DNA of 64,000 bases from Cystobacter ferrugineus (GTDB lineage: Bacteria; Myxococcota; Myxococcia; Myxococcales; Myxococcaceae). The position numbers and the translations under genes were made by a program. How positions within the stretch are numbered: position 1 is the stretch's first letter; each line of letters starts with the position of its first letter. The DNA lies in NCBI RefSeq assembly GCF_001887355.1, contig NZ_MPIN01000024.1, positions 1 through 64,000 of the forward strand, in the 5' to 3' direction. Under the pieces are notes generated by a model. The model was not told where the DNA came from and did not search any database. It worked only from the letters and a program-made list of their open reading frames with translations. Shown piece after piece: positions 42,339 to 46,774 of the stretch.

Positions 42339-43205
42339 ATGACCCCTCCCGCCGTCGTGGAAATCGACCACCGCGACCCCGCGCTGCAAGCCGCCTTCTG
42401 TGACTACGTGCCTCGGGTCTTCCGCACCGTGGACTTCCGGCGCTGGTGCGAGTGGGGTGAATGGAACGATGACTACCGAGCCTTCGCGGTGCTCGACGAG
42501 GGGCGCGTGGTGGCCAATGCCTCGGTGATGCGGATGCGGCTGCGGATCGAGGGGCGCGAGGTCATCGGCTACCAGCTCGGCGCGGTCGGCTGCGTGCCCT
42601 CCCACCGGGGGAGGGGGTTGTCGCGGGGGGTGATGAGCGCGGCGCTCGAGTCTTGCGGCGAAGCGCCCGTGCTGTTGTTCGCCAACAAGAACGTGCTCGG
42701 CTTCTATCCGCGCTTCGGGTTCAAGCCTTGGGAGCAGGCGTTGTTCGGCGCGGCGTTCCACGCGGTGCCTGGAGGTGAGCCCGCACCGGTGCTCGACCTG
42801 GTGGAGGCTCACGTGCGCGAGGGGCTGGTCTCCCTGTCCGAAGAGGGGCTCGCGGTGACCGAGCGCTTTGGCTCACGCGGCCATGCGAGGATCGCGAGCT
42901 GGTATGCGGCGAATGCCTTCTCGCGACCCCTTCGCCAGTTGCACGCCGATGCCTGGGTGTTCGCCGGCGTCGAGAACGGCACGCTCTACATCGACGACAT
43001 CTTCGCGCGTGAGCCCTTTGACCCGCGGCCCCACATTCCGCGATTGATTGACCAGCCCATTACCGCGGTCCATTTCGGCTTCACTCCCGAGCGTTGGTGG
43101 CCTTGGGCGGGTGTCGCCGGCGAGGACTCGGAGGCCTACCTCTTCGTGCGCAACCTGGGGCCCCCGTCCGGTCCGCATCGGTTTCCGGTGATGGCACGAA
43201 CCTGA
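42339..43205 (+). CDS. GNAT-family N-acetyltransferase
   Basis: A protein of about 288 residues. The acetyl-CoA binding motif VPSHRGRGLSRGVM lies near residues 87-101, preceded by the VIGYQLGAVGCV strand. The FANKNVLGFYPRFGFKPW segment is the usual C-terminal GNAT signature. The last 120 residues are an extra domain of unclear fold, as in Eis-like acetyltransferases. The substrate is unknown. The start at 42339 is taken because it begins the conserved domain and has GGGAG 9 nt upstream. Confidence 0.8.
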   Translation: MTPPAVVEIDHRDPALQAAFCDYVPRVFRTVDFRRWCEWGEWNDDYRAFAVLDEGRVVANASVMRMRLRIEGREVIGYQLGAVGCVPSHRGRGLSRGVMSAALESCGEAPVLLFANKNVLGFYPRFGFKPWEQALFGAAFHAVPGGEPAPVLDLVEAHVREGLVSLSEEGLAVTERFGSRGHARIASWYAANAFSRPLRQLHADAWVFAGVENGTLYIDDIFAREPFDPRPHIPRLIDQPITAVHFGFTPERWWPWAGVAGEDSEAYLFVRNLGPPSGPHRFPVMART

Positions 43206-43249
43206 TGCCTCGGCTTCGACGAGCCGCGGCATGGGGTCCTCTTGGGGCG

Positions 43250-43819
43250 TCATGTTCCGTAAGGGATGGCCTCCCGTGCGTCGCGCAGGGCCTTGGCCCA
43301 CCAGCCGAGTCGCGTGAGCAGCAGGTCCATGGCCTTCCGGACGCGCTCGGGCTCGCGCGGCTCACCGGCTTCGTCGAACTGCTGCCAGGCGTTGGTGAAG
43401 CTCACGCAGTCCCGGATGGTGACCGCGTGCAGTTCCGCGAAGACCTGGCGCAACTGCTCCACGGCGCGCAGACCTCCCGAGATGCCTCCGTAGGAGACGA
43501 ACGCCACGGGTCTGGCCTGCCAGGGCGTGTGGATCGCGTCGATGAGGAACTTGAGCGCCGCGGGGTAGCCGTGGTTGTACTCCGGCGTGACGACGATGAA
43601 GGCATCCGCCCTCGCGAGGCGCTCATGCAGCGCGAGCACCTCGGCGCCGGCCTGCTGTTCATGTCGTCCTGGGAGTGCCAGGGCGGCCGGGTCCACCACT
43701 TCCAGGGTGAACGTGCCCTGCCGGGCAATCTCGGCGGCGGCCCACCTCGCCACGGTGTCGCAGAAGCGGCCCTCGCGGGTGCTGCCGTAGATCAGTGCGA
43801 CCTTCATCTTTCGCTCCAT
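43250..43819 (-). CDS. NAD(P)H-dependent FMN reductase
   Basis: A 189-residue flavodoxin-like reductase. VALIYGSTREGRFCDTVA is the FMN-phosphate loop, and AFIVVTPEYNHGYPAALKFLIDA is the family's hallmark. It should reduce FMN or quinones with NAD(P)H in the cytoplasm. The start at 43819 has AAGGA 8 nt upstream. It is the second gene of an operon with the monooxygenase at 43853-44638 (33-bp gap), read from the SoxR-box promoter. Two-electron quinone reduction would fit a redox-cycling stress response, which is inference. Confidence 0.9.
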   Translation of the reverse strand: MERKMKVALIYGSTREGRFCDTVARWAAAEIARQGTFTLEVVDPAALALPGRHEQQAGAEVLALHERLARADAFIVVTPEYNHGYPAALKFLIDAIHTPWQARPVAFVSYGGISGGLRAVEQLRQVFAELHAVTIRDCVSFTNAWQQFDEAGEPREPERVRKAMDLLLTRLGWWAKALRDAREAIPYGT

Positions 43820-43852
43820 GGGGTTGTCCTTCCTCTCTCGGGTGGGTGTGCG

Positions 43853-44638
43853 TCAGGTCGTGGTCGGCGGAAGAAACAAGCCCCGGTAGGGAAGGTGTCG
43901 CCTCGCCTGAGCCCAGCTCGGAGTGCCTGTTGCCCCGTTGCCCTTCAGCCCGGGGAAGTGCATCACGCGGTGCCACTGGGGAGAGGCGCTCGCGGGCGTT
44001 GTGGTGGAGCTCTCCAGGAATGCACGGTGTGCCGCGGCATCCGTCCACTCGGCCAGGTTGAGTACCCGCATGCCGTCGGTGCTCAGGTGGAAGTGGGCGG
44101 CGAGCAGCCCGGACTGTGCGCGACTCCCCGTGGCGGCGGCCTCGAGCACGGCTTCCACCCAGCGCTGCTGTCGCTCCGGGTCCGGGCCCTCGAAGGTGAT
44201 GTCGACGGTGACGATGCAGCCGGGCGGTTCCGACGGACCCTCCACGACGAAGTCGCGAAAGGGACGGTAGGTGACGACTCCGTGGCGTTCGATGCCGGGG
44301 ACAGCGGCGAGGATGCCCTGGACACGCTCCGGTGGGTCGTTTCTCCGGAAGAGCTGGAGGGCCTCGTCGCCGGTCCACTGGGAGTAATGGGTCACCGTCG
44401 TCCCGTCTTCGCCCAGCAAGCAACTGTATGAGAGCAGCCCCTCCGGCCACGGTACGTGCTCCCACGCGTCCATGGCCGCATTGGCGGCGGCCTGCTGGGC
44501 CTCACGCGTGGGCACCGTCCATCGGCTCGAGAGAACGAGGCCGACGTCGGGACGCTGGATGGGGGGGAGGCGGGCGGACAGATGCTCCGGGGGCCGGAGG
44601 GCTGGATGCTTCGGGGTTCGTGGCGCTTGAAAGTTCAT
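43853..44638 (-). CDS. Antibiotic biosynthesis monooxygenase (ABM) family protein
   Basis: A 261-residue protein with two tandem ferredoxin-like ABM domains (about residues 35-130 and 135-245). Both halves show the dimeric alpha-beta-barrel pattern: [11 protein letters not shown]...[25 protein letters not shown], then [11 protein letters not shown]...[29 protein letters not shown]. Such proteins oxidise quinone-like or phenolic compounds without cofactor, or act as haem/quinone chaperones. Its start lies only a few bases from the predicted transcription start of the SoxR-box promoter, so the message may be nearly leaderless. The substrate is unknown. Confidence 0.85.
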
Positions 44639-44643
44639 GCCCC

Positions 44644-44680
44644 TATCCCTAAGACCTCAACAATACTTGAGGTCAAGGGG
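44644..44680 (-). promoter_or_regulatory. SoxR-dependent promoter with consensus SoxR box
   Basis: The 18-bp box CCTCAA-N6-TTGAGG (44655-44672) matches the E. coli soxS consensus, and symmetry extends to GACCTCAA/TTGAGGTC (44653-44674). Read on the minus strand, a TTGACC -35 element and a TAGGGA -10 element are separated by 19 bp, the over-long spacer typical of MerR-family promoters. The direction is toward the monooxygenase gene; soxR starts 15 bp to the right. Confidence 0.9.
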
Positions 44681-44689
44681 TGGAAGTGC

Positions 44690-45160
44690 ATGGCACGAAT
44701 CGACCCGAAGCATTTCACGAAGGAGCTCAGCGTCGGCGAGGTGGCGGCGCGCAGCGGGGTGGCTGTCTCCACACTGCACTTCTACGAGGCGCAGGGCCTC
44801 ATCACCGGCTGGCGCAACGCGGGCAATCACCGCCGCTACGCGAGGGACGTGCTGCGCCGGGTGGCCATCATCAAGGTGGCGCAGCGCGCGGGCGTTCCCC
44901 TGGCGACCATCCGAGAAGCCCTGCAATCGCTGCCGGAGGGGCGCACGCCCTCGGCCGCGGATTGGGCCACGTTGTCGGCCGCGTGGAGGGATGAGCTGAA
45001 CGGCCGCATCCAGAGGCTGACGCGGCTGCGCGATCAGATGGACAGCTGCATCGGCTGCGGCTGCCTGTCGCTGGAGTCCTGCCCACTGCGCAACCCCTGG
45101 GACGAGCTCTCCGAGCAGGGACCGGGCCCGAGGCTGCTCGACCCGGGCTCGGGCGATTAG
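44690..45160 (+). CDS. soxR: Redox-sensing regulator SoxR
   Basis: A 156-residue MerR-family regulator. The N-terminal winged helix has [26 protein letters not shown], then a long dimerisation helix, then the [2Fe-2S] ligands [12 protein letters not shown] (CxxCxCx5C) near residues 119-130, the diagnostic feature of SoxR. Oxidation of the cluster by redox-cycling compounds turns on the target promoter. Its SoxR box lies between it and the divergent monooxygenase-reductase operon, so those are the direct targets, as in non-enteric bacteria that lack SoxS. Its stop overlaps that of the convergent DHFR-like gene by 4 bp. Confidence 0.97.
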
Positions 45161-45726
45161 CCGGGAGAGGGGGCTTGAGCGGTTGGGGTGCCCGCGGGGA
45201 GGACATAGCGCAGCTCCACCAGCCCCTGTCCGAAGCGCTTCACACCCGCGAGTTCGAGCGGCGTGTGCAGGGCCGCCGCCAGGAGGGGCGCCCCCGCGCG
45301 GAGGAAGACGGGGACGACGCACAGGTGCAACTCGTCGACGAGGCCATGCGCCGCGAATTGCGCGGCCAGGTCTCCGCCCCCCATCATCCAGATGTTCTTG
45401 CCCCCGGCGGCCTCGACCATCCGGGCATGCACCGCCCGGACGTCCTCCGAGGTGAAGCGCACGTCCGCGCCCGGGAGGGCGGGTAGCTGCCGGTGGGTGA
45501 ACACCCAGGTCGGGAGCCCCGAATAGGGCCACTCCTTGCCCTCGCCGAGGAGGAACTCATACGTCCGAGCTCCCATGGCGAGGGCGCCAATGCCCGAGAG
45601 GAAGCTCTGGTAGTGCTCCATCACTCCTTCGGCATCGTTGAACTGGAAGAGCCACTCGAGCCGCCCCTGCGCATCCGCGATGTATCCGTCGAGGCTCGCC
45701 GCCACGTAGTACTGGGTTCTGGTCAT
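45157..45726 (-). CDS. Dihydrofolate reductase-like (RibD C-terminal fold) protein
   Basis: A 189-residue protein of the DHFR/RibD_C family. [13 protein letters not shown] is the family's opening strand and loop; [15 protein letters not shown] and [31 protein letters not shown] are the NADPH-binding pieces. Members often use unknown substrates and are not true folate enzymes. The ATG at 45726 is chosen because it starts the conserved strand. It is divergent from the WYL regulator, with a palindrome between them, so it is likely that regulator's target. Confidence 0.88.
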
Positions 45727-45748
45727 GGGCGGGAGCCTGCGCGCCTCT

Positions 45749-45769
45749 CCCTGACACCTCCTGTCAGGG
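45749..45769. promoter_or_regulatory. Palindromic operator between DHFR-like and WYL genes
   Basis: A perfect inverted repeat CCCTGACA-N5-TGTCAGGG in the 64-bp gap between divergent genes. Arms containing TGACA/TGTCA are typical of operators for WYL-domain YafY-type regulators, which commonly control a divergent small enzyme. Confidence 0.65.
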
Positions 45770-45790
45770 ATTCTCGGGCACAATGTGGCC

Positions 45791-46774
45791 ATGAAATCGA
45801 GCCGACTGCTGGCGTTGCTCCTGCAGCTCCAGCGCCGTGGGAAGGCCACCGCGCCGCAACTCGCCGCCGAGCTGGAGGTGTCCGTCCGGACGCTCTACCG
45901 GGACGTCGCCGCGCTGATGGCCGCGGGCGTGCCGCTGTGGACGGAGCCCGGGCCGCAGGGCGGCATCCGCCTGGTGGAGGGGTGGCGGACGCGGCTGGAT
46001 GGACTGACGGCGCCCGAGGCGACGGCCCTCCTGCTCTCCGGCGCGCCCCGGGCCGTGTCGGACCTGGGGCTCGCCGCGGTGGCGGCAAGCGCTCGTGCGA
46101 AGGTGGACGCCACGCTCCCCGAGGCCCTGCGCGCGAGGGCGGGCGCCCTGCGTGAGCGCTTCCACCTGGATGCGCCCGGGTGGTTCTCGCGGCCCGAGCC
46201 GCTCGAGGCGCTGCCCGCCGTGGCCGAGGCCGTGTGGGAGTGCCGACGGCTGGACCTGCGCTACGGGAAGGAGGGCGTCAGGCGACGCGTGGACCCGCTC
46301 GGGCTCGTCCTCAAGGGAGGCACCTGGTACCTCGTCGCACGCCACCGCGGGCAGGTGCGCACCTACCGGGTGAGCCGCGTGGCGCGCGCCACGCTCACCG
46401 AAGCGCGCTTCACACGCCCCGCGGGCTTCGAGCTGGCCGCCTGGTGGGAGCAGACCTCGGCGGAGTTCGACCGCTCGCTGCTGCGCCATCCCTGCACGGT
46501 GCGCCTGTCGCGGCGGGCCTGCCGCCTGCTGCCGCACCTCCTGCCTCATGATGCCGTGCGGGAGATGCTCGCGGCGGCAGGGCCGGAGGACGAGGAGGGG
46601 TGGAGGACGGCGGAGCTCCGGCTGGAGAGCGAAGAGGTGGCGGTGGACCAGCTCGCCGGGCTCGGTGATGGCGTGGAGGTCCTCGCGCCCCTCTCGCTCC
46701 GCTCCCGTCTCCACGCGGTTGCCCTGCGCATGGCGGCCCTCAATGCCGGGGAGCCGCGCGCACGGAAACAGTGA
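45791..46774 (+). CDS. WYL-domain transcriptional regulator (YafY type)
   Basis: A 327-residue regulator. The N-terminal helix-turn-helix (RRGKATAPQLAAELEVSVRTLYRDVAALMAAGVPL) is a DeoR-like HTH_11. The central WYL domain has GGTWYLVARHRGQVRTYRVSRV with the W-Y-L signature, followed by a C-terminal WCX extension ending near LNAGEPRARKQ. WYL proteins sense small molecules or nucleic acid. The ATG at 45791 is preferred over the GTG two codons earlier. The palindrome just upstream, shared with the divergent DHFR-like gene, is its likely binding site. Confidence 0.9.
   Translation: MKSSRLLALLLQLQRRGKATAPQLAAELEVSVRTLYRDVAALMAAGVPLWTEPGPQGGIRLVEGWRTRLDGLTAPEATALLLSGAPRAVSDLGLAAVAASARAKVDATLPEALRARAGALRERFHLDAPGWFSRPEPLEALPAVAEAVWECRRLDLRYGKEGVRRRVDPLGLVLKGGTWYLVARHRGQVRTYRVSRVARATLTEARFTRPAGFELAAWWEQTSAEFDRSLLRHPCTVRLSRRACRLLPHLLPHDAVREMLAAAGPEDEEGWRTAELRLESEEVAVDQLAGLGDGVEVLAPLSLRSRLHAVALRMAALNAGEPRARKQ

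Follow-up and report, generated by a model that had tools for sequence, protein, structure and literature searches.

Which genes a SoxR regulator controls in a myxobacterium, and from what kind of promoter, is the question raised by a short stretch of Cystobacter ferrugineus DNA in which soxR stands back to back with the genes of an ABM monooxygenase and an FMN reductase. We analysed this locus within a stretch of 64,000 nucleotides (the window), in the 12.05 Mb genome to which it belongs (G000; G-numbers denote the Myxococcia genomes compared) and in related genomes and plasmids. The answer that we favour, and hold to be quite probable, is a direct, SoxS-independent regulon of the non-enteric type, in which SoxR drives the ABM-FMN reductase operon and an NmrA-like gene.

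The soxR locus and its promoter

The soxR gene (44690-45160, plus strand) encodes a [2Fe-2S] MerR-family activator of 156 aa. Its product reaches 226.8 bits against NCBIfam TIGR01950, above the curated equivalog cut-off of 116.9, carries the CxxCxCx5C ligand motif of the [2Fe-2S] cluster and has as its top solved relative the SoxR structure 2zhg (E 1.5e-57), which we take to be the E. coli protein. The original prediction of a soxR with this cluster is borne out by all three, and redox-dependent activation and DNA binding would be expected of the protein from its sequence. At its 3' end, soxR is overlapped by a few bases by a convergent RibD_C-domain gene (45157-45849, minus strand), whose 5' end as called overlaps a divergent WYL-domain regulator gene (45785-46774, plus strand).

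On the other side of soxR, gene calls and Pfam domains agree with the predicted divergent enzyme pair: two minus-strand genes, 33 bp apart, point away from the regulator. The first (43853-44638) encodes an ABM monooxygenase of 261 aa, in which PF03992 (46.3 bits, gathering score 23.1) matches residues 143-211, in the C-terminal half only; Pfam gives no second ABM domain in the N-terminal half. A weak structural model from a two-sequence alignment (mean pLDDT 56.6) contains two similar alpha-beta repeats, and Foldseek places it closest to PenE (9kdp) and the anthrone oxidase-like protein 5f9p, two-domain structures with chains of 220-241 aa; judging from this model, the protein probably consists of tandem ferredoxin-like domains. 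The ActVA-Orf6 structure 1lq9 is matched at E 9e-6. The active site of ActVA-Orf6 has a conserved Asn/Trp pair; in an alignment made without superposition on 1lq9, N194 and W198 of the window protein are invariant in four aligned homologues, and a Prauserella homologue has F at W198. The second gene (43250-43819) encodes a 189-aa NAD(P)H-dependent FMN reductase, or quinone or chromate reductase-like flavoprotein, which matches PF03358 (145.7 bits, gathering score 24), reaches no NCBIfam cut-off and has YLR011w, a chromate reductase and YieF as PDB relatives; PDB matches to TAL effectors were set aside as stray. Membership of these families suggests quinone chemistry for both enzymes.

Between the divergent genes lies an exact SoxR box, CCTCAACAATACTTGAGG (44655-44672), which fits CCTCAA-N6-TTGAGG with 0 mismatches; as predicted, its arms are identical to those that PMC4411124 prints for the E. 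coli box. The box sits between the -35 and -10 elements of a minus-strand SoxR-type promoter (44646-44676), made up of TTGACC (44676-44671), a 19-bp spacer and TAGGGA (44651-44646), with 7 nt to the ATG of the ABM gene, and these elements, too, are arranged as originally described. The spacer is over-long, as in SoxR-type promoters (19-20 bp), and TAGGGA fits TATAAT poorly as a -10. The distance to the first codon had been put at about 15 bp, which holds for the box (16 bp), but the gap from TAGGGA to the ATG is just 7 nt. This gap is the only known distance that bears on a leaderless message, and a leaderless 5' end of the ABM-FMN reductase message is predicted from it; AGGGA inside the -10, 7 nt before the ATG, could instead serve ribosome binding in a longer transcript. 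No sigma-70 promoter with a spacer of 16-18 bp, a range that leaves the 19-bp MerR-type spacer outside the scan, and no terminator were found in 43050-45250. On the plus side, the box ends 17 bp before the soxR start, and only AAGACC stands where a TTGACC facing soxR would be.

Relatives, origin and placement of the ABM gene

SoxR was found above the cut-off in 17 of 147 Myxococcia genomes and ABM homologues at E <= 0.001 in 10 of 142. The original prediction made conservation of the box with the ABM gene in relatives a test of the circuit, and the outcome is mixed. In its favour, the four genomes of the 142 with an ABM homologue at E < 1e-20 (G000, G047, G045 and G044) all belong to the 17 that carry SoxR. 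At the window soxR, ABM followed by FMN reductase occupies the divergent side. G044 and G045 have soxR, FMN reductase and ABM adjacent, with the enzyme order swapped (reductase then ABM), but their TTGACC-N19 promoter points at soxR, away from the enzyme genes, which counts against a simple conservation of the ABM promoter. In the nearest relative, G047, whose SoxR is 87.5% identical to that of the window, the divergent side holds reductase fragments. This locus (G047:C1:9485270-9488689) keeps soxR, the box, the spacer, TAGAGA and ATGAACTTTCAA, and lacks about 1,010 bp of the window arrangement (most of ABM and the front of the reductase gene) plus another 98 bp; the comparison identifies it as a decayed version of the window operon, with ABM and part of the reductase deleted. 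Because ATGAACTTTCAA is shared at the deletion join, the window ABM start is supported. G047 has lost the ABM gene next to soxR, but its second ABM (38%), 3.4 Mb from the soxR locus and followed by an SDR gene, has a box of its own (one mismatch), and 4.7 kb separate this box from that of the NmrA-like gene described below.

Elsewhere among the 17 loci, soxR stands divergent to transketolase-like genes in five genomes that belong to a single genus (L021-L025, called by Pfam on L021 and by likeness for the others), from a zinc-type quinone oxidoreductase gene in five loci (L027, L028 and L030-L032) and from an NmrA-like gene at one (L033); the divergent neighbour at L026 had no Pfam match, and L029 was left out of the domain scan. 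The strict TTGAC[CT]-N19 pattern is present at 10 of the 17 loci, each time with [TC]A as the first two letters of the -10. The other myxobacterial SoxRs above the cut-off (n = 15) are at most 61% identical to the window SoxR. A 72-aa C-terminal soxR fragment in G092 (L034, 1513-1728), 79% identical to residues 82-153 of the window SoxR and with no front part found, is perhaps a relic of the window soxR lineage.

Beyond the myxobacteria, we sampled plasmid records and made one genome scan. The eight best plasmid SoxR matches come from Microvirga and Azospirillum (70.4-71.6% identity to the window SoxR). Neighbourhoods were inspected in 9 of 131 matching records, two of which hold a boxed soxR-reductase pair: in Microvirga lotononidis, soxR (about 72%) is divergent from an FMN reductase gene (64%), and on Sinorhizobium meliloti pSymB, the values are 61% and 56%. 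Within the stretches of these nine records, no match to the window ABM was found at E <= 1e-4, and the Microvirga pair is, by sequence identity, the closest outside one found. The phylogenetic tree joins the SoxRs of the window and G047 to that of Azospirillum (support 95/82) and separates them from G044, G045 and the other myxobacterial SoxRs. A first tree had placed the ABM-linked SoxRs in one clade (87/90), which was broken when nine outside SoxRs were added and the window SoxR joined Azospirillum. Given the short proteins and thin sampling, the Azospirillum grouping is suggestive only. We infer that the soxR-reductase pair is of alphaproteobacterium-like origin and that ABM was added later, and the window regulon was perhaps acquired horizontally.

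ABM homologues were detected in eight plasmid records, and the neighbourhoods of three were inspected. On one Streptomyces plasmid, soxR is divergent from DsbA-ABM-hydrolase genes, with NmrA next; this locus has no box at <=2 mismatches, and a diverged palindrome can be discerned by eye in TTGACT-N19-GAGGCT-N6-ATG. On the other two Streptomyces plasmids, the clusters around the ABM homologues have type II polyketide genes among their annotations, with no annotated soxR in the stretch around ABM. An ABM scan of genome contigs gave at least one relative, confirmed in Prauserella, among the matches listed, and therefore says little about the spread of ABM; the Prauserella locus has no box at <=3 mismatches. 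ABM thus stands before the reductase gene in the window, behind it in G044 and G045, behind a DsbA-like gene in Streptomyces, and unlinked but boxed in G047. The best reading of these placements is that the ABM gene was recruited more than once to SoxR regulons. A more speculative proposal, to which we give a low probability, is that this recruitment is repeated and independent because the two enzymes are coupled in their action and would disarm the inducing redox cycler, the flavoprotein making a hydroquinone or anthrone and the cofactor-free ABM oxygenating the product.

The same enzymes might serve a different end. The pair could tailor a secondary metabolite by oxygenation of a quinone or anthrone, with SoxR timing its expression with production rather than for detoxification. 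The top folds of the ABM protein are polyketide-type monooxygenases, its homologues occur in the two polyketide-annotated clusters and, in S. coelicolor, targets of SoxR are similar to tailoring enzymes of actinorhodin (PMC4146615, in the part available). Against this, the three further window neighbours examined are GNAT, RibD_C and WYL-regulator genes, and soxR paired with the reductase gene is seen again in Microvirga and S. meliloti, with neighbours in the latter that are non-biosynthetic by name. We regard tailoring as a minority possibility, though the most serious of the alternatives, and a detoxifying response under SoxR remains the preferred reading.

A second boxed gene and the specificity of the box

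Genome-wide counts were compared with expectations from an order-1 model of window composition. The exact 18-mer box occurs once in the window (0.0025 expected) and twice in the genome (0.47 expected). Looser matching is uninformative: at <=2 mismatches the window contains only the exact site, with no second box, against 1.97 expected, and at <=1 mismatch the genome has eight sites, the same number as for the reversed control and thus no enrichment. Among the six sites with one mismatch, C3:879866 was discarded, as it overlaps a possible start codon within a reading frame and has no promoter; the remaining five lie on C4 (two), C12, C20 and C23. The promoter-plus-box 22-mer, TTGACCTCAA-N6-TTGAGG, is found at exactly two places in the genome, against 0.0018 expected, and its reversed control at none, even at <=2 mismatches; nine further genomes were covered by the same search, and there the control gives 0 to 3 sites per strand.

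The second exact site (G000:C6:555934) forms TTGACC-N19-CACACT-N8-ATG, and the ATG starts a gene, unlinked to soxR, for an NmrA/epimerase-like, NAD(P)H-binding protein. The gap from -10 to ATG is 8 nt, nearly the same register as the 7 nt at ABM, so that the near-leaderless geometry originally noted is seen again at a second promoter. A two-gene response had been proposed; the ABM-reductase pair stands, but the account is incomplete, and with this second boxed gene the circuit has at least two predicted operons. The G047 ortholog (91%) also has an exact box, with N7 to the ATG. In a survey of 28 NmrA-like loci, a locus counted as boxed if the 250 bp before its gene held a site with <=1 mismatch to CYTCAA-N6-TTGARG; this was so for 4 of 9 loci in SoxR-positive genomes (G000, G047, G082 and G080) and for 0 of 19 elsewhere (p 0.006, kinship of genomes ignored). 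Two of the four (L095 and L097, in G082 and G080) are weaker evidence because their ACTTGAAC arm resembles that of non-SoxR MerR sites.

Indeed, judging from sequence, the arms of the box seem not to be specific to SoxR. Sites of the TTGACCTCAAGTCGACTTGAA type are also found at non-SoxR MerR genes, including one in the window's genome (G000:C1:475376), and cross-talk between SoxR and such sites is possible. A near-SoxR site of the type TTGACCTCAAGT-N2-ACTTGAA lies close to the starts at 9 of 12 non-SoxR MerR loci (L036-L038 and L041-L046 among L035-L046); the CxxCxCx5C motif is absent in the three of these genes tested (L036, L041 and L043). The part of PMC5045206 at hand offers no guidance on operators shared between MerR proteins. 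The site with similar arms in the window's genome, together with the soxR-facing promoters of G044 and G045, could be taken to mean that the main role of the box is autoregulation of soxR, or that a different MerR regulator recognising the same half-sites uses it, the ABM-reductase genes being constitutive. We consider this improbable: the activator-type promoter of the window faces ABM, in a register close to that of the NmrA promoter, and the plus strand has AAGACC instead of TTGACC. A chance palindrome, in whose favour stands the lack of enrichment at <=1 mismatch, is rejected with near certainty by the two exact 22-mers, one of them next to soxR and kept in G047.

Proposed circuit and known SoxR systems

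The direct SoxR regulon that we favour builds on what is directly seen, namely the genes, the box, the promoter geometry and a second boxed gene that is conserved in G047; SoxR binding, induction and enzyme chemistry are predicted. SoxR would occupy the box between TTGACC and TAGGGA, and phenazines, quinones or pigments of the cell itself or of a competitor would oxidise its [2Fe-2S] cluster. Oxidised SoxR would then untwist the over-long spacer, giving a nearly leaderless ABM-FMN reductase message, and would drive in trans the NmrA/epimerase-like oxidoreductase from the second, near-identical promoter. With the box so close ahead of the soxR start, SoxR probably restrains its own gene. The ABM enzyme would oxygenate hydroquinone- or anthrone-like rings, and two-electron reduction of quinones would fall to the flavoprotein, so that the two may jointly alter or disarm the inducer.

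An ABM protein had been thought an unusual SoxR target, a view that known systems overturn: PA2274 and SCO1909 are SoxR-regulated monooxygenases, and SCO2478 is a flavoprotein reductase (PMC4146615). Both enzyme classes are thus already known as SoxR targets elsewhere, on the part of that source available. What differs here is the ABM-reductase operon beside soxR with its leaderless-looking promoter; among the literature matches listed, titles and abstract openings contain no report of a soxR-ABM-FMN reductase operon.

Several known systems share features with the window. In Stenotrophomonas maltophilia, soxR and mfsA are likewise divergent around one common box, which serves both target activation and soxR autorepression, but the target is an MFS pump and the mfsA 5' UTR is relatively long, in contrast to the near-leaderless ABM-reductase operon (PMC4411124, in part). 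The Microvirga and S. meliloti pairs resemble the window in the divergent soxR-reductase arrangement and the TTGACC-N19 box promoter, and differ in having no ABM in the stretches covered and a start codon further from the -10. Within the Pseudomonas aeruginosa regulon (PA2274, PA4205-PA4208 and PA3718), the monooxygenase PA2274 is under SoxR control and resembles SCO1909 (PMC4146615); the window soxR, by comparison, has no adjoining transporter, and the likeness of its ABM to PA2274 is one of class, without alignment.

A further close parallel is that of Streptomyces coelicolor, where SoxR directly activates the monooxygenase SCO1909/ecaB, similar to PA2274 and ActVA-ORF6, the flavoprotein reductase SCO2478 and the NAD-dependent epimerase SCO1178/ecaC, and where the quinone oxidoreductase SCO0320ext is also a target, within a SoxR-dependent set that also takes in an oxidoreductase and an ABC transporter (PMC4146615, in the part available). 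These targets lie at separate loci, judging by locus numbers, whereas in the window the ABM and reductase genes share a single operon that diverges from soxR. Set beside this actinobacterial regulon, the myxobacterial one matches it in its monooxygenase, flavin reductase and NmrA/epimerase classes. The zinc-type quinone oxidoreductase and transketolase-like neighbours of other myxobacterial soxR genes also match Streptomyces target classes, a SoxR box at a transketolase gene being described in Streptomyces avermitilis (PMC4146615). These matching classes support the idea of small SoxR regulons for processing redox-active metabolites, and the two-gene, near-leaderless operon of the window is convenient for asking if its two enzymes operate as a pair.
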